Source: a virus
Reading direction: 5' to 3' (one strand)
Length of the DNA stretch: 22,162 nt
Virus record (IMG/VR): IMGVR_UViG_3300037010_000300
Span: 1-22,162 of that record
Shown one piece after another: positions 2-18,486 of the stretch. Position 1 is the first letter of the stretch. Every line of letters starts with the position of its first letter. The notes beneath the pieces are model-generated. The model did no database searches. It worked only from the letters and a program-made list of their open reading frames with translations, and was not told where the DNA came from. The translations under genes were made by a program, and so were the position numbers.

Positions 2-2488
2 CATGGGTTCGCCTACTGCGAGGACGATGGGCCTGTCCGGTGGGTTTCTGGCCCGTCAGTGCCTGCATCCCTACTCAGGCTCATACAAGCTCATCCAGAC
101 GCATCGTGGTGCGCACACAACGCCATGTTCGATATGGCGATCCTGTCCTGGCGCTACAACATCAGGCCGCGACGCATCGTGGACACGCTGAGTATGGCGC
201 GGCTGGCCGACGTGCATGGCAAACATTCCTTGGCGGCGCTGAGTGAGCGGTACGGCTTGGGCGTGAAGGGTGACGCGCTGGTAAAAACCCTTGGAGTGCG
301 CGACCTCGATCCCATGCTAGAAACGCGGCTGGCTGAGTATTGCAGGCAGGACGTGGGGCTACTGCGCAAGCTGCATTACATGCTCGACGACGCACTCCGC
401 TCGGAGATTCCAGAAATTCGCTACAAGCGTGAGCTGGCGCTGATCGACTGCACGGTGCGCATGTTCACTGAGCCGGTATTGACAATCGACGCGGCACTAC
501 TTCACGCGCGGCTGGAGGAGCTAGAAGCGCAGCGCGACGCGGCTGTCGCTGCCTCGGGGGTAAGCCTCGACGTGCTGATGAGCAATCAGCAGTTCGCCGC
601 AGTGCTTGCGGGACGTGGCATCCAGGTTCCTGCATCCCTACGCAAGACTGACCCCGACCTGCTGGCGCTCAAGGATGACTCGCGCGCGGCTGCGCTTATC
701 CAAGGCAGGCTGGCGGCTAAGAGCGTGTCGGAGCTACGGCGGACGTCGAAGTTCCTCGGTGTGAGCGGACGCGGCACGATGCCTGTGCCGCTCAAATACT
801 ACGGCGCGCATACGGGCCGATGGTCGGGCGCGGATGGGTTGAACATGCAGAACCTGAACCGAGGGTCGCCATTGCGTAAATGCTTGACAGCCCCGGACGG
901 GTATGTGCTGGTCGTCGTGGACTCAAGCCAGATCGAGGCTCGCGTGCTCGCGTGGCTGGCCGGCCAGGACGACTTGCTGGCGCAGTTTGCCGCAGGTGAG
1001 GACGTTTACGTCAAGTTTGCGGAACGGCTATGGCCGGGAGAGAAGATCGACGAGATCAAGCGGTTCGTGGGGAAAACTTGTGTTGCCGAGGGAACTCTTG
1101 TATTATCCCGACAAGGTTGGAAGCCTATCGAGAGCATCACAACCGACGATTTGTTGTGGGATGGAAAGGAGTGGGTATGCCACCAAGGGTTACTGAACAA
1201 CGGCATCAAGCCAACATTGAGTCTTTGCGGCGCTTGGTTGACGCCGGATCATCTTGTGTGGTCAGGGGAGCAGTGGTTGGAGGCGAACTCGGTAGTAGCC
1301 GACGCCGATACCCTTTGCCGAGCATTGGCTACCGGAGCGGAAAACTTACCGTCACAGGCTACATTCGTGGCATCCGAGGGGGAGTTAGTGCCATCATTGT
1401 GCGATGCGACTGTAACGGAGTTGAGTACACCGTTGACCGGCACAACTTCAAAAACTTCAGGAGCACGCGATGCCCTATTTGCGCCAAAACGGCATCGGTT
1501 GCTAAACGCTATTGGTTATATAGCGAAGCGATGGCGGACGACCAGCACAGAATTCGCTTACTCAATCGCCTATCTGCGGCAATTTCTCGATGCCACTGTC
1601 CAACCAACCGCGTGTATAAACACTACGGCGGGCGCGGCATCTATGTGTGTCAAGATTGGCGGCAGGACAGAGCAGCGTTCCTACGGTATGTCCAAACGCT
1701 TGATGGTTGGGACAACCCTGCCCTCGAAATGGACAGGATCGACGTGGATGGGCATTACGAGCCGGGCAACATCAGGTTCGTGTCCCGTAGCACCAACCTC
1801 CGCAACAAGCGCAAAATCGCTGACCTCGAAGCGCGTATACGACATCTTGAACTGCGGCTCGCGCAACAGGTTCACGATACTGACTGAATCCGGCCCGGTA
1901 ATTGTGCACAACTGCATACTCGGACTCGGGTATGGGGTCGGGCACGCCAAGCTCCACGCGCAGATCGTCACGAAGCAACCCGACGCGGCCCTCGAGGATG
2001 CGCAGCAGTATGTCGCTACATACCGTAACACTTACGGCGCGATCACGCGGCTTTGGCGGCGTGCCGATGGTATGCTACGAGCGATGATGCAGGACGCACG
2101 CGTCGACTGGCTGCGCGGCATTTCGACGGGGTTTGAGACACTTCGCCTGCCGTCTGGCCGGGTGCTGCGCTATCCTGGCCTACGCTTGACGACTGACGGG
2201 TATGAGTACGGCGTGGGGTCGGACAAGCGCAGGCTCTACGGCGCGGCGTTGGTCGAAAACATCGTCCAGGCCATCGCTCGTGACATTGTGGCCGACCAGA
2301 TGCTCGCCATCAGGAGCAAGTATCGCGTGGTCACTATGACGCACGATGAGATTGTCTTTTTGGTGCGAGAAGGCGAGGCGGATGAGGCGTTCGAGTTTGC
2401 GAAAAGCGTGATGCGTGCGGCACCGAGCTACTCGGAAGGCGTGCCGCTCAATTGTGCAGGCGGATATGCGAGGAACTATTCAAAATGA
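2..2488 (+). CDS. Family A DNA polymerase with 3'-5' exonuclease domain, intein-interrupted, 5'-partial
   Basis: Replicative phage polymerase of the DNA polymerase I type. The frame is open to the window edge, so the true start and exonuclease motif I lie outside; the GTG at 59 is internal. The exonuclease part shows motif II (HNAMFD, near 116-133) and motif III (YCRQDV). The polymerase part shows TGRWSG and NMQNLNR, motif A (VVVDSSQIEARVLAW, catalytic Asp codon at 920) and motif C (THDEIVF, His-Asp codons at 2342-2347). Motif B (O-helix) is split: KRFVGKT ends at 1078 and CILGLGYGVG starts at 1913, with an intein between. About 828 residues are visible, 278 of them intein, leaving about 550 of extein. 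The stop overlaps the next start as ATGA at 2485. It heads the replication cassette. Active enzyme requires protein splicing, because the intein disrupts the catalytic helix. Confidence 0.95.
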   Translation, partial: HGFAYCEDDGPVRWVSGPSVPASLLRLIQAHPDASWCAHNAMFDMAILSWRYNIRPRRIVDTLSMARLADVHGKHSLAALSERYGLGVKGDALVKTLGVRDLDPMLETRLAEYCRQDVGLLRKLHYMLDDALRSEIPEIRYKRELALIDCTVRMFTEPVLTIDAALLHARLEELEAQRDAAVAASGVSLDVLMSNQQFAAVLAGRGIQVPASLRKTDPDLLALKDDSRAAALIQGRLAAKSVSELRRTSKFLGVSGRGTMPVPLKYYGAHTGRWSGADGLNMQNLNRGSPLRKCLTAPDGYVLVVVDSSQIEARVLAWLAGQDDLLAQFAAGEDVYVKFAERLWPGEKIDEIKRFVGKTCVAEGTLVLSRQGWKPIESITTDDLLWDGKEWVCHQGLLNNGIKPTLSLCGAWLTPDHLVWSGEQWLEANSVVADADTLCRALATGAENLPSQATFVASEGELVPSLCDATVTELSTPLTGTTSKTSGARDALFAPKRHRLLNAIGYIAKRWRTTSTEFAYSIAYLRQFLDATVQPTACINTTAGAASMCVKIGGRTEQRSYGMSKRLMVGTTLPSKWTGSTWMGITSRATSGSCPVAPTSATSAKSLTSKRVYDILNCGSRNRFTILTESGPVIVHNCILGLGYGVGHAKLHAQIVTKQPDAALEDAQQYVATYRNTYGAITRLWRRADGMLRAMMQDARVDWLRGISTGFETLRLPSGRVLRYPGLRLTTDGYEYGVGSDKRRLYGAALVENIVQAIARDIVADQMLAIRSKYRVVTMTHDEIVFLVREGEADEAFEFAKSVMRAAPSYSEGVPLNCAGGYARNYSK
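1165..1179 (+). promoter_or_regulatory. Ribosome binding site and ATG of the nested HNH gene
   Basis: AAAGGAG at 1165-1171, spacer TGGGT, then ATG at 1177. In the polymerase frame the same bases encode the intein residues GKEWVC. A near-consensus site at optimal spacing directly before the alternative-frame ORF supports independent translation. Confidence 0.6.
1177..1887 (+). CDS. HNH homing endonuclease nested out of frame inside the intein
   Basis: A 236-aa protein read one base out of phase with the polymerase and lying wholly within the intein DNA. Residues 49-61 (SIGYRSGKLTVTG) open a domain typical of phage HNH nucleases. A likely zinc ribbon follows (C77, C79, C99, C102), then YKHYGGRGI (147-155), then the nuclease core with EMDRID (184-189) and YEPGNIRF (194-201), and a basic, Leu-heptad tail. 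The chosen ATG has Shine-Dalgarno AAAGGAG at 1165-1171 with a 5-nt spacer. The first ~45 residues overlap intein blocks A-B coding and look like a forced extension. GTG 1273 or TTG 1315 are later possible starts, but neither has as good a site. Likely role: cutting intein-less polymerase genes so that the element spreads. The fold call is firm; expression as a separate protein is inferred. Confidence 0.85.
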   Translation: MPPRVTEQRHQANIESLRRLVDAGSSCVVRGAVVGGELGSSRRRYPLPSIGYRSGKLTVTGYIRGIRGGVSAIIVRCDCNGVEYTVDRHNFKNFRSTRCPICAKTASVAKRYWLYSEAMADDQHRIRLLNRLSAAISRCHCPTNRVYKHYGGRGIYVCQDWRQDRAAFLRYVQTLDGWDNPALEMDRIDVDGHYEPGNIRFVSRSTNLRNKRKIADLEARIRHLELRLAQQVHDTD

Positions 2489-2814
2489 GCAGTTTGTATT
2501 GCGTGAAGTGCGGAGCGAAGGACGGTGAACGGCATCACGACACATGCCTTTTCGCCGGGACGGTGTTCACCACGAACAAAAGTCGGGTTGTTGATAACTA
2601 CCAGATCGGCGGCGACCACTATAAAGAGCTGGCGGTTCAGCCGTGGTCGGCGATGGAGTCATGGATGAGCGAGGCTGAGTTTGAAGGCTTCTTGCGCGGG
2701 AACGCGATCAAGTATCTGTCCCGCGCAGGTCGGAAGGGCGACGGTCTGCAAGACTTGAAGAAGGCCTTGCACTACCTTGAGAAGCTGGTGAGCGTGAAGG
2801 AGCAGCGGGAATGA
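2485..2814 (+). CDS. DUF3310 family phage protein with N-terminal Cys cluster
   Basis: A 109-aa protein starting at the ATG that overlaps the polymerase stop (ATGA, 2485-2488); AGGA lies about 10 nt upstream. Residues ~36-105 carry the DUF3310 signature: YQIGGDHY, then AVQPW, GNAIKYLSRAGRKG and DLKKALHYLEKL. This domain is widespread in phages, sometimes labelled nucleotide kinase-like, and its biochemical role is not settled. The first ~25 residues hold C6, C9 and C21 with nearby His residues, suggesting a small added zinc-binding module. It sits between polymerase and nuclease in the replication operon, so a role in DNA or nucleotide metabolism is an inference from context. Confidence 0.85.
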   Translation: MSSLYCVKCGAKDGERHHDTCLFAGTVFTTNKSRVVDNYQIGGDHYKELAVQPWSAMESWMSEAEFEGFLRGNAIKYLSRAGRKGDGLQDLKKALHYLEKLVSVKEQRE

Positions 2815-3461
2815 TCTACTCCTACTCTAGCCTAAGCTGCTACCTGAAGTGCCCGCAGCAGTTTTTCCGCAAATACAAAGCGCGGGACACGCTGCCTTAC
2901 CAGAGCAAAGAGTCATCGAGCGGGGTCGAGATTCACGAGGCGATTGAGACGGCGCTCAAGACGCGAACCCCTCTGCCCGAGCCGCTGACGATCTACGAAG
3001 AAAGCATCAGCAGCGTGCGCAACCGCATTGACAACGCGCGGATCGAGCAGACGATCTTCCTCGACCACAATTTCGACTACGCCGTGACAAAGCCGGCCAA
3101 AGGGTTCGTGGCGAAGCTGGACGTGCTACTCATCAGCGACGACGGCAAGCGTGCGGTGGTGTGCGATTGGAAAAGCGGCAAGCCCTACGAGGACACGCTG
3201 CAACACGACTGCTATGCGCTCGCCGTCCTCAAGGCGTTCCCTGTCGTGGAGAAAGTGACCGGGTTCAATGTCTACCTGAAGCACGGCAAGGTGGGCGCAG
3301 AAGTGGTGCATGAGCGGTGCAACCTGCAAGCTGTTGAGGACAAGATCGCCCGCATCATCGCGCAGATCGAGGCCGACGAGCGGTGGGTGCCCAAGCCTTC
3401 GCCGCTTTGCAACTGGTGCAGTGCGCACAAGTGCGTGCTTTACCCGAAGAAGGAGGCTTGA
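2811..3461 (+). CDS. PD-(D/E)XK nuclease, Cas4/RecB-like
   Basis: 216 aa; the ATG overlaps the previous stop (ATGA), with AAGGAG at about 2797-2802. The N-terminus YSSLSCYLKCPQQFFRKY is typical of Cas4/RecB-type phage exonucleases. Catalytic elements in order: H42 in EIHEAIE, D104 in AKLDVLL, D119 and K121 in CDWKSGK, and Q131 in the QHDCYA helix. C14 together with C200, C203 and C208 matches the four-Cys pattern that holds an iron-sulphur cluster in Cas4-like nucleases. Likely a DNA end-processing exonuclease acting in recombination-dependent replication or host DNA breakdown. There are no CRISPR genes nearby, so a CRISPR role is unlikely. Fold assignment is firm; the precise substrate is unknown. 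Confidence 0.9.
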   Translation: MIYSYSSLSCYLKCPQQFFRKYKARDTLPYQSKESSSGVEIHEAIETALKTRTPLPEPLTIYEESISSVRNRIDNARIEQTIFLDHNFDYAVTKPAKGFVAKLDVLLISDDGKRAVVCDWKSGKPYEDTLQHDCYALAVLKAFPVVEKVTGFNVYLKHGKVGAEVVHERCNLQAVEDKIARIIAQIEADERWVPKPSPLCNWCSAHKCVLYPKKEA

Positions 3462-3462
3462 C

Positions 3463-3594
3463 GTGGGGGCGATTTCGCTTGCGGTCGTTATGATGCTGAT
3501 TATTTTGGCGTTTCTTGTCATTGGGCCCCGGCTCGGAGTTGCGTTCCTAGCCGTCTGCGGCGTCCTGTTTTTCTTGGCGCATATATTCCAATGA
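3463..3594 (+). CDS. Small membrane protein (43 aa)
   Basis: Begins at GTG 3463 behind an excellent Shine-Dalgarno, AAGGAGG at 3450-3456 with a 6-nt spacer, inside the end of the nuclease gene. The product is almost wholly hydrophobic: residues ~3-20 (ISLAVVMMLIILAFLVI) and ~25-42 (GVAFLAVCGVLFFLAHIF) form two membrane segments joined by a short GPRLG turn. Its TGA overlaps the next ATG as ATGA. The frame stays open far upstream, but only this part reads as protein and has a start signal. Function unknown. Small two-TM proteins in early phage operons can be host-takeover or exclusion proteins, but nothing here proves that. Confidence 0.75.
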   Translation: MGAISLAVVMMLIILAFLVIGPRLGVAFLAVCGVLFFLAHIFQ

Positions 3595-3881
3595 CGCCCG
3601 AAGGCAAAGTAAAGGCCGAGATCAAGAAAGTCTTGGCCGAGTACGGATGCTGGTATTTCATGCCCGCCATGAACGGCTACGGGCGGTCGGGGATACCAGA
3701 CTTTATCGGCTGCTACAAAGGCGTGTTCTTTGCGGTTGAGGCGAAAAGTGCGAACGGCAAGCTAACGCCGAACCAGGAGCGTGAGGTTGCCGCAATGTTG
3801 GCCGCTGGTGGCCGCGTGGTGGTGGCTCGCAGTGCAGAAGCTGTCAGGGATCTGATGGTACTTATTGAGAGGGGAAAATGA
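3591..3881 (+). CDS. VRR-NUC domain nuclease
   Basis: 96 aa, the usual size for a stand-alone VRR-NUC protein. The nuclease core shows GIPDF (34-38), VEAK (49-52) and a following Gln (NQERE, Q62), the PD-(D/E)XK catalytic pattern. The C-terminal GGRVVVARSAEAV is the standard end of the fold. The family acts as structure-specific or Holliday-junction-type endonucleases in phages and eukaryotic FAN1. Translation is probably coupled to the small membrane protein (ATGA overlap; weak Shine-Dalgarno of its own). Placed with polymerase, exonuclease and helicase, it probably trims replication or recombination intermediates. The identity is solid; the role is inferred. Confidence 0.92.
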   Translation: MTPEGKVKAEIKKVLAEYGCWYFMPAMNGYGRSGIPDFIGCYKGVFFAVEAKSANGKLTPNQEREVAAMLAAGGRVVVARSAEAVRDLMVLIERGK

Positions 3882-3884
3882 ATG
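3867..3884 (+). promoter_or_regulatory. Shared Shine-Dalgarno with tandem out-of-frame starts
   Basis: GAGAGGGG (3867-3874) is followed by AAA and ATGAATG. The ATGs at 3878 and 3882 open the methyltransferase and the overlapping frame. The TGA of VRR-NUC (3879-3881) lies between them, so a terminating ribosome is placed to reinitiate at either ATG. Confidence 0.5.
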
Positions 3885-4585
3885 AGTTGGCTTTATTCGC
3901 GGGCGCTGGTGGAGGATTACTTGCAAGCGACCTGCTCGGAATTAGAACGATATGCGCCGTTGAACGAGACGAATTCTCCAGAAGCGTTCTTATCAAACGG
4001 CAAAACGACCGAACACTTAATGCTTTCCCGATATGGGATGACGTGCGAACCTTTGACGGAACCGTCTGGCGTGGGAGTGTGGATCTGCTTTCTGGAGGGT
4101 TTCCATGCCAAGCGTTTTCTACAGCGGCGCATGGAAGAAACGTCGCAAGCAAAGACTTGTGGCCTGAAATGCGAAGAATTGCACGAGAATGCGTTCCGAA
4201 GTTTATCTTTGCAGAGAATGTTTCCGAACATGCGGTTAACCGGGCGGCTATGGATCTTCGCGCCGATGGTTACGAGTGCGCCACAACGTGCTATAGCGCG
4301 CAAGACATGGGTGCAGACCACATACGGAAACGACATTGGCTACTTGCATACACCAACCACGATTGCGAATTTCGCAGCGCCTTCAATGCAAAAGCACAGC
4401 GGCTGCCGGAATTTTGTCCGCGTGTTTGGGAAACCAACCCCAACGAATTTCGAGTACCTGATGGGTTGGCCCATCGGGTGGACAAGTTACGAGCCATTGG
4501 AAATGGGCAAGTACCATGCGTGGCGGCAGCGGCATTTTTAACGCTTTGGGCTAAGATGCTGTCAGGGGATGCTGGATGCAATTAG
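3878..4585 (+). CDS. C5-cytosine DNA methyltransferase (compact)
   Basis: 235 aa, short for the family because the target recognition region is small. Motif I, SAM binding, is LFAGAGGGLLA (5-15). Motif IV with the catalytic Cys is GGFPCQAFS. Motif VI is AENV, a motif VIII-like stretch is GADHIRKRHWLLA, and motif X is AIGNGQVPCVAAAAF. It transfers a methyl group to C5 of cytosine, probably protecting phage DNA from host restriction; no cognate restriction enzyme is visible. The ATG at 3878 overlaps the VRR-NUC stop (ATGA) and shares GAGAGGGG (3867-3874) with a second ATG 4 nt downstream in another frame. The 3' end overlaps the helicase start by 10 nt. Recognition sequence unknown. Confidence 0.92.
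   Translation: MNELALFAGAGGGLLASDLLGIRTICAVERDEFSRSVLIKRQNDRTLNAFPIWDDVRTFDGTVWRGSVDLLSGGFPCQAFSTAAHGRNVASKDLWPEMRRIARECVPKFIFAENVSEHAVNRAAMDLRADGYECATTCYSAQDMGADHIRKRHWLLAYTNHDCEFRSAFNAKAQRLPEFCPRVWETNPNEFRVPDGLAHRVDKLRAIGNGQVPCVAAAAFLTLWAKMLSGDAGCN
3882..4541 (+). CDS. Phage protein overlapping the methyltransferase in the +1 frame
   Basis: A 219-aa frame lying entirely within the methyltransferase gene, starting at the second ATG of ATGAATGAG. It begins MSWLYSRALVEDYLQATCS and ends with TPTTIANFAAPSMQKH, FEYLMGWPIGWTSYEPLE and a basic tail. From memory, these N- and C-terminal patterns recur in phage hypothetical proteins next to or overlapping Dcm-type genes, which is why I do not treat it as a mere shadow. 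GAGAGGGG at 3867-3874 gives it a spacing of 7 nt, at least as good as for the methyltransferase start. The middle (residues ~70-150) has no recognisable motif. Function unknown. Expression is unproven; the main alternative is a long open shadow of the methyltransferase. Confidence 0.6.
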   Translation: MSWLYSRALVEDYLQATCSELERYAPLNETNSPEAFLSNGKTTEHLMLSRYGMTCEPLTEPSGVGVWICFLEGFHAKRFLQRRMEETSQAKTCGLKCEELHENAFRSLSLQRMFPNMRLTGRLWIFAPMVTSAPQRAIARKTWVQTTYGNDIGYLHTPTTIANFAAPSMQKHSGCRNFVRVFGKPTPTNFEYLMGWPIGWTSYEPLEMGKYHAWRQRHF

Positions 4586-17139: not shown

Positions 17140-18486
17140 TCAGTTCCAAATAAAAACGAGCGCCGCTGGAAACGGCTCGCCCTCATCGACTCCACTACCA
17201 AGCCCTACAATTCCAGAGTCTTGCGGCAAGCCGCCTTGCGTGCCTTTTGCATACGCTGCGCCGTCCAGCAACGACAACAGTGTTTGGCTCCCACGCTGAA
17301 CAGTGACGTTTGGCGAAATTGATACTGTCAGCATGTCGCCAGCAACGACAGGCAACTGTTGCCGTGACGTTTGCCGCCCTGCTGCACCATAAGGCGAGCC
17401 GCCCGCAGCCGTTGCGCTTACGAGAAAGTAATTTGAATACGGTGGAACGGTGAACGTGCTGGACTGCGTATAAACCGCTATGTTCGCTTGCGGCGGTGGC
17501 GACGACGTGTAGAACTGCGGTGTCGCAGCTTGTTGCGCAGCGTATAAGTATGCCGCGTTCAGCGTGCTGTAGCCGGAGCTGATGGACGCAATTTGAACGT
17601 CAGCGCCATTAACTTGTACCGCCGTAATAACAATAGGCTGACTAGTAACAACCAGCGCGACCTGAGCGTCTGCGGCGTCAGCCTGAGCAGCCTGGGCGGA
17701 TACAGGCAGCGTGCCGGACGCAACCTGCGTGTCTGCGGTGTCAGCCTGAGCAGCCTGGGCGGATACGGGCAGCGTGCCGGACGCAACCTGCGTGTCTGCG
17801 GTGTCAGCCTGAGCGGCCTGGGCGGATACAGGCGGCGTGCCGGACGCAACCTGCGTGTCTGCGGCGTCAGCCTGAGCAGCCTGGGCGGATACAGGCAGCG
17901 TGCCGGACGCAACCTGCGTGTCTGCGGTGTCAACCTGAGCAGCCTGGGCGACGACAGTCAGCGTGCCGGTCGCGGCCTGAACGTCTGCGGCATCAGCCTG
18001 AGCAGCCTGGACAACGACAGTCAGCGTGCCGGACGCGGCCTGCGTGTCTGCGGCATCAGCCTGAGCAGCCTGGACGACGACAGTCAGCGTGCCTGACGCG
18101 GCCTGAGCGTCTGCGGCGTCAGTCTGGGCGGCCTGGGCGACGACAGTCAGCGTGCCGGACGCGGCCTGCGTGTCTGCGGCGTCAGTCTGGGCGGCCTGGG
18201 CGGCTGCGGGTATTGTGCCGGACGCGGCCTGCGTGTCTGCGGCGTCAGTCTGGGCGGCCTGGGCGGCTGCGGGTATTGTGCCGGACGCGGCCTGAGCGTC
18301 TGCGGCGTCAACCTGGGCAGCGGTTGCGGAAACGCCGCTGCCGGCCGCGCCGAATATCCACGCACCCCAAACCTGCGCCTCGGTTTTGTCCAGGTCGCCC
18401 CAGTCAATGCGCGCGTAGGTCTGCGCAGCGCTGCGTTTGATGTACCGCGCATTGAGCCAGCCGTTGATCTGCGCGGCAGCGGTCAT
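17140..18486 (-). CDS. Repeat-containing tail/fibre-like protein (448 aa)
   Basis: Three regions. Residues 1-54 (INGWLNARYIKRSAAQTYAR) look like a virion-anchoring domain. Residues 55-285 are eleven 21-residue repeats of the form QAAQxDAADxQxASGTxxxx; the last copy has decayed. The C-terminal ~140 residues (STFTVPPYSNYFLVSATAAG, then AGDMLTVSISPN and GGLPQDSG) resemble the Gly-rich beta domains at the tips of phage fibres. The most likely role is an elongated tail or head fibre for host contact. Repeat sub-types are grouped along the array (IPAAA, LTVVA/V, LPVSA), a sign of local duplication. No trimerisation or enzyme motif recognised. Confidence 0.7.
   Translation of the reverse strand: MTAAAQINGWLNARYIKRSAAQTYARIDWGDLDKTEAQVWGAWIFGAAGSGVSATAAQVDAADAQAASGTIPAAAQAAQTDAADTQAASGTIPAAAQAAQTDAADTQAASGTLTVVAQAAQTDAADAQAASGTLTVVVQAAQADAADTQAASGTLTVVVQAAQADAADVQAATGTLTVVAQAAQVDTADTQVASGTLPVSAQAAQADAADTQVASGTPPVSAQAAQADTADTQVASGTLPVSAQAAQADTADTQVASGTLPVSAQAAQADAADAQVALVVTSQPIVITAVQVNGADVQIASISSGYSTLNAAYLYAAQQAATPQFYTSSPPPQANIAVYTQSSTFTVPPYSNYFLVSATAAGGSPYGAAGRQTSRQQLPVVAGDMLTVSISPNVTVQRGSQTLLSLLDGAAYAKGTQGGLPQDSGIVGLGSGVDEGEPFPAALVFIWN
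17632..18324 (-). repeat. 63-bp coding tandem repeat, 11 units
   Basis: Adjacent copies start exactly 63 bp apart (for example GTGCCGGACG at 17711 and 17774 on the plus strand). 63 is a multiple of three, so gain or loss of units keeps the frame. Neighbouring units are most alike, and the unit nearest the 3' end of the gene is degenerate. Confidence 0.9.

Follow-up and report, generated by a model that had tools for sequence, protein, structure and literature searches.

In textbook homing inteins the endonuclease is a domain of the same polypeptide. The DNA polymerase gene in the phage record IMGVR_UViG_3300037010_000300, whose 22,162 nt form the whole stretch of DNA analyzed here (the window), raises the question of whether an intein and its endonuclease can be encoded in different reading frames of the same DNA and translated as two separate proteins. 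Such an arrangement had been proposed in an initial annotation of this DNA, and the coordinates given there for the intein (1079-1912), the HNH gene (1177-1887) and the AAAGGAG site were exact (Table 1). The locus is very probably a mobile polymerase intein accompanied by a separate homing endonuclease, which is read from the -1 frame and made from an internal start; from the comparisons described below we infer splicing, internal initiation, cleavage and its target.

Table 1. Features of the polymerase locus in the window
Feature	Position	Strand	Remarks
Polymerase ORF	2-2488	+	Frame 2, open throughout; family A DNA polymerase, DNA polymerase I-type
N-extein of phage family A DNA polymerase	2..1078	+	5' end of the gene lies outside the window
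Class 1 intein	1079..1912	+	278 aa, polymerase frame; Cys1, TPDH, VYDI..NRF, HN, Cys+1
Shine-Dalgarno-like AAAGGAG	1165..1171	+	5 nt ahead of the ATG; encoded by intein motif WDGKEW
HNH endonuclease gene, -1 frame	1177..1887	+	236 aa; ATG at 1177; coding to 1884; TGA at 1885-1887
5' overlap	1177..1296	+	The same DNA encodes HNH residues 1-40 and intein residues ~33-72, block A-B region
Intein block B, TPDH, residues 55-58	1241..1252	+	T55 and H58 invariant in relatives
HNH core, zinc ribbon and HNH	1297..1830	+	Stays open in the polymerase frame, where it reads as an unconserved linker predicted to be disordered
3' overlap	1834..1887	+	DNA of intein block F also encodes the HNH coiled tail and stop codon
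Intein block F VYDILNCGSRNRFTI	1835..1879	+	Kept in relatives; pLDDT 83-88
Intein block G, terminal His-Asn	1907..1912	+	H277 and N278 invariant
Polymerase C-extein	1913..2488	+	Starts CILGLGYG; contiguous FVGKTCILGLGYG in intein-less L195/L196

The N-extein matched the Pfam families DNA_pol_A (3.6e-22) and DNA_pol_A_exo1 (3.5e-8) and a PHROG family of DNA polymerases (6.7e-81). The conserved polymerase motif FVGKT/CILGLGYG is split by the 278 intein codons, in which all landmarks of a class 1 intein are present: Cys1, T55-P-D-H58, block F VYDILNCGSRNRF and H277-N278, followed by Cys+1. The splice residues are invariant across the relatives. In an AlphaFold2 model, for which (as for the HNH protein below) only related sequences from the window and the contig loci were used, intein residues 1-93 and 247-278 were predicted with confidence (pLDDT about 83-91), and residues 94-246, which correspond essentially to the HNH-coding stretch, were predicted to be disordered (pLDDT about 23). 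A Foldseek search showed that the two conserved pieces resemble the DnaX, RecA and DnaB mini-inteins; the best 38 PDB matches were nearly all inteins or intein-like domains, with a probability of mostly ~1 at E > 0.001. Judged by its motif set, the HINT-type fold of the model and its exact insertion relative to an intein-less allele, the protein encoded at 1079-1912 is a complete class 1 intein, the splicing itself being predicted. The same polymerase motif offers this intein family two sites, GKT^C... and GKTTILG^C..., located four codons apart, and the loci L016, L024, L026, L028 and L033 use a different one of the two from that occupied in the window. Elsewhere in the window, a 63-bp tandem repeat of 10.6 copies (17656-18321) lies within a minus-strand ORF (17140-18486) with QAAQTDAADTQAASGT repeats, and a short ORF of 235 aa (3878-4585) resembles DNA cytosine methyltransferases by its N-terminal motif LFAGAGGGLLASDLLG, as judged by eye.

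The HNH frame is displaced from that of the intein by (1177-1079) mod 3 = 2, i.e. -1. The protein matches PHROG families of HNH endonucleases (best match phrog_374, E = 2.4e-32), and this similarity together with the zinc ribbon and the core residues assigns it to the HNH family. The residues C77, C99, C102, D186, R187, N198 and N207 are invariant in the relatives, and C79 is nearly so. The core reads DRID...N...N, not the textbook H-N-H, in a family that is annotated as HNH endonuclease, and no HNH match was obtained in searches of Pfam and NCBIfam. Although the AlphaFold2 model of the protein has a mean pLDDT of 84, neither a Foldseek comparison of this model with the PDB nor a profile search of PDB sequences returned a match at E <= 0.001, which lowers the structural support only. 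Both components described in the initial annotation, a complete intein and a 236-aa HNH protein in another frame, were thus recovered. The true N-terminus of the HNH protein could lie downstream of the start at 1177, because the evolution of residues 1-40 mostly follows the demands of the intein frame.

Relatives of the HNH protein were collected from several sources. A tblastn search of cultured phages located them inside the DNA polymerase genes of Jerseyvirus, Pseudomonas phage MR14 and Vibrio phage 97.13 (45-51% identity); a single-sequence scan of IMG/VR gave 28 loci with relatives 51-100% identical, an alignment-based scan of IMG/VR gave 200 loci of which 80 were kept, and GTDB genomes contributed 8 candidates. 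Plasmids yielded distant HNH proteins only. The same out-of-frame HNH intein is also found in bacterial assembly contigs, probably prophages, including L096 (Erwinia sp. OLFS4), L095 and L098. In all 88 HNH-family loci with a locatable intein N-block, the HNH gene has the -1 offset and in none is it in frame; the N- and C-blocks of the intein share one frame in these loci, which is open wherever the contig holds both. A census based on the intein N-block alone, and therefore unbiased with respect to the HNH, comprised 79 loci, with the HNH at +2 (equivalent to -1) in 67, a number that includes six shortened inteins with relics only and some redundant contigs, at +1 in 5, absent in 7 and in frame in none. 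A search for the same offset in other polymerase inteins, as suggested in the initial annotation, thus had a clear outcome, and the possibility raised there of a sequencing frameshift is excluded by the number of loci that share the offset. More generally, the probability that assembly or sequencing frameshifts displaced an originally in-frame HNH domain is negligible: nothing in its favor was found, independent assemblies and cultured-phage genomes share the offset with both frames open, and the start and stop of the HNH gene sit inside the splice blocks, so that an in-frame HNH would be impossible without destroying block F.

The distribution of substitutions and stop codons was analyzed in 20 relatives, with the expected numbers of stops obtained by synonymous codon resampling. 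From 1079 to about 1290 and again past about 1860, substitutions pile up at the wobble positions of the polymerase frame. Between about 1297 and 1830 they fall at the HNH wobble positions, i.e. the second positions of the polymerase codons, and the HNH wobble positions are saturated while the HNH amino acids are kept. The codon phase therefore switches at about 1297 and at 1830-1860. Pairwise comparisons of the window with L010, L011 and L012 gave omega values over 1297-1830 of 0.10-0.11 (HNH frame) and 1.0-1.35 (polymerase frame); in the N-terminal splice-block stretches upstream the polymerase-frame value was 0.08-0.38. No polymerase-frame stop was seen in 1297-1830 (127 expected), and in the HNH frame none was seen in 1177-1293 (25.6 expected) and 2 in 1834-1884 (17.9 expected), counts that come from loci related by descent and are not independent samples. 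Upstream of the ATG, HNH-frame stops were close to expectation (33 seen, 39.7 expected) and the region immediately past it had none; the HNH frame is therefore kept open by selection from the ATG onward. Selection acts on both frames, and the boundary of the constraint is sharp at this codon. The dual-coding test proposed over 1177-1887 was in this way positive, with stops avoided in both frames and omega switching by region.

Within the two overlaps the demands on the HNH protein are modest. Over the 5' overlap its amino acids are lightly constrained apart from the frame staying open, and its tail over block F is weakly constrained on the HNH side. The initial annotation had expected a strong dual constraint at block F; the overlap stands, and the constraint is mild because the HNH tail is tolerant there. 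The splicing and endonuclease functions are thus largely separated along the DNA. It was likewise proposed that the two functions are coded separately, and this is supported by the dual-frame selection from the ATG, the conserved starts described below and the lack of any in-frame HNH.

The same data bear on two other explanations. HNH ORFs being common in the group I introns of phages, the segment might be an RNA-level intron with a free-standing HNH ORF; this is extremely unlikely, given that the polymerase frame stays free of stops through the segment (0 against 127 expected), that all intein splice residues are conserved and that no Rfam intron family was matched. The notion that the HNH reading frame arose by chance or survives as a relic, and that only the intein matters, has some basis in decayed HNH genes, namely the stop in L127, the missing DRID aspartate in L022 and mini-inteins without the core. 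It is nevertheless highly improbable and largely refuted by the selection pattern, in view of an HNH-frame omega of about 0.1, full-length conservation in dozens of loci and retained amino acids at saturated HNH wobble positions. The reverse pattern, stops in the HNH frame beside a conserved polymerase frame, was also looked for, and the HNH-bearing relatives are open except L127.

The start codon of the HNH gene is conserved. The Shine-Dalgarno-like sequence is supplied by the intein motif W-D-G-x-E-W, and its predicted duplex with the anti-Shine-Dalgarno sequence has an energy of -8.2 kcal/mol in the window and -5.6 to -11.5 kcal/mol at the same start in the relatives. In the clade of the window the ATG is built from the codons for V-C (gtATGc) at an offset of +98; clades without this Cys start two codons upstream, at a Trp codon (xxATGG) and an offset of +92, where 32 of 37 distinct loci have ATG and the other 5 have GTG or TTG. 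The +98 and +92 starts are complementary (Fisher p = 2.6e-6, computed without correction for relatedness). These observations bear on programmed -1 ribosomal frameshifting, which would yield an extein-intein-HNH fusion and no free HNH protein. The -1 position of the HNH frame with respect to the polymerase does match the direction in which programmed frameshifting commonly occurs; however, slippery X XXY YYZ heptamers in the polymerase frame of 72 loci were sporadic only, with no conserved position. The HNH frame is, moreover, free of stops from the ATG with many just upstream, the relatives retain a start codon (ATG, GTG or TTG) with Shine-Dalgarno-like pairing at +92 or +98, and a second HNH family sits in the other (+1) offset, which together make frameshifting very improbable.

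The intein with its out-of-frame HNH gene appears to be mobile. Two polymerases, L195 and L196, have an exactly empty site in extein DNA 87-92% identical to that of the window, and in the similarly close L197-L200 the same codon is occupied by a different intein (32% identical), whose HNH (49% identical) is again out of frame. A motif scan found the insertion site empty in 76 of the best 80 closest polymerases. The HNH proteins of L010-L012 are 75-80% identical to that of the window, versus about 40% for the exteins, a discrepancy showing that the intein moved independently of the host-gene phylogeny by horizontal transfer. Next to its HNH intein, the L010 polymerase has a second, 157-aa mini-intein at VTEN^CVQALA (C1 = ORF residue 843). 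Stages of decay were also observed: a single stop in the HNH frame (L127), loss of the DRID aspartate and part of the HNH core (L022), and shortened inteins with out-of-frame HNH remnants and an intact polymerase frame (L116, L121, L132, L143, L144 and L177). The latter and L165, a shortened derivative with +1 relics, are 135-195 aa long and retain relics of both HNH ends, and are best read as deletion derivatives. Within the N-block, stops in the former HNH frame are confined to mini-inteins that have lost the HNH (L151, L161, L165 and L175). This series of empty, full, decayed and HNH-less alleles fits the intein homing cycle as outlined in a passage of PMC1654191.

Taken together, the following scheme is proposed. 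The polymerase ORF would be translated straight through the intein, of which residues about 1-93 and about 247-278 would fold together and splice out, and the excised intein would carry a disordered linker, which is simply the HNH gene read in the wrong frame. Ribosomes entering at a second place, the Shine-Dalgarno-like site and ATG (1165-1179), would produce the 236-aa zinc-ribbon HNH endonuclease, which may cut or nick intein-less polymerase genes, and repair would then copy the whole intein across. The levels of polymerase and endonuclease would thereby be uncoupled. Phage endonucleases can also act in marker exclusion. Even if the arrangement is right, the HNH may serve another function than homing of the intein that carries it, e.g. 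cutting competitors or spreading flanking genes, and some HNH proteins act in packaging, as cited in a passage of PMC4422536. We assign this only a small probability, as the location of the HNH inside the intein, its co-transfer, the sporadic distribution and the empty sites fit homing.

A second class of polymerase inteins has its HNH gene in the +1 frame. It includes APSE phages and other loci, mostly at another site, and the distantly related HNH proteins, about 26-32% identical to the query set, start after block B and end at block F. Cultured-phage matches to this class in DNA polymerase genes include those in Caulobacter phages GB2A and RW and Shewanella phage SFCi1, as matches of the HNH only, independent of frame. 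An APSE-7 polymerase deletion was considered and rejected, since loci of the same class show the intein at another site, GGKL^CENI. The polymerase of L190 (3-3929) contains two inteins, one (1527-2393) with a +2 HNH and one (2772-3695) with a +1 HNH of the other class. The arrangement either had two or more origins or was re-framed in one lineage. It seems somewhat probable that separately translated out-of-frame HNH proteins are normal for phage family A polymerase inteins carrying this nuclease, that they arose at least twice and in both alternative frames, and that two-protein homing inteins are systematically missed by annotation pipelines.

With the two proteins split over overlapping DNA, the level, timing and fate of the nuclease need not follow those of the host protein. 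Decay of the nuclease, or a deletion of it that keeps the frame, can leave the splice domain untouched. The locus is also an unusually clear natural overlapping gene, with two frames and sharp boundaries of constraint, and an allele series (empty, full, decayed and mini) is available for tests together with cultured phages such as Jerseyvirus. Phage inteins that databases list as "mini" or nuclease-less may in many cases be mis-annotated active homing elements.

The initial annotation knew of no described example of this exact arrangement. This holds insofar as no account of the polymerase case or of its dual selection was found in the open literature, the scope of the search; similar arrangements had, however, been annotated or mentioned before. 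The arrangement recurs across many related phages and has drawn little notice. An out-of-frame HNH insertion, the ShiLan domain, was described in a mycobacteriophage methylase, for which the authors could detect neither motifs of intein splicing nor a ribosome binding site (PMC11855218). As there, the HNH of the window lies out of frame inside an insertion that is open in the frame of the host gene; unlike there, the insertion has a complete splice domain with full splice motifs and a Shine-Dalgarno-like site before the start. For a brucellaphage, a passage of PMC4422536 mentions a putative HNH gene that is encoded by an intein and lies out of frame in its host gene; that gene, compared here through the authors' mention, differs in residing in the terminase large subunit.

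Closer counterparts are found in sequence records. In APSE-1 (NC_000935.1) the HNH endonuclease P46 is annotated as overlapping the DNA polymerase P45, and our computation places it, as in the window, out of frame inside a polymerase intein of the same broad family; it differs in its +1 offset, its site GGKL^CENI and its extent, from downstream of block B as far as block F, and no discussion of it was found in the open literature. The polymerase intein of Jerseyvirus has the same family and offset as that of the window, with HNH proteins 47-51% identical. For Salmonella phage Ent1 (HE775250.1) it is labelled "encoding splicing domains" and the HNH is not annotated; the public Jerseyvirus intein annotations of L003 (Ent1), L007 and L008 omit the out-of-frame HNH. 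Like canonical homing inteins, the element of the window has class 1 splice blocks, is inserted exactly within a conserved polymerase motif, holds its endonuclease DNA between blocks B and F, and has counterparts in empty alleles and mini-inteins. It differs in that the HNH lies outside the precursor, in the -1 frame as in all located relatives, with its own start and stop and reaching into splice-block DNA, and the place of the in-frame endonuclease is taken by a disordered, unconserved linker.
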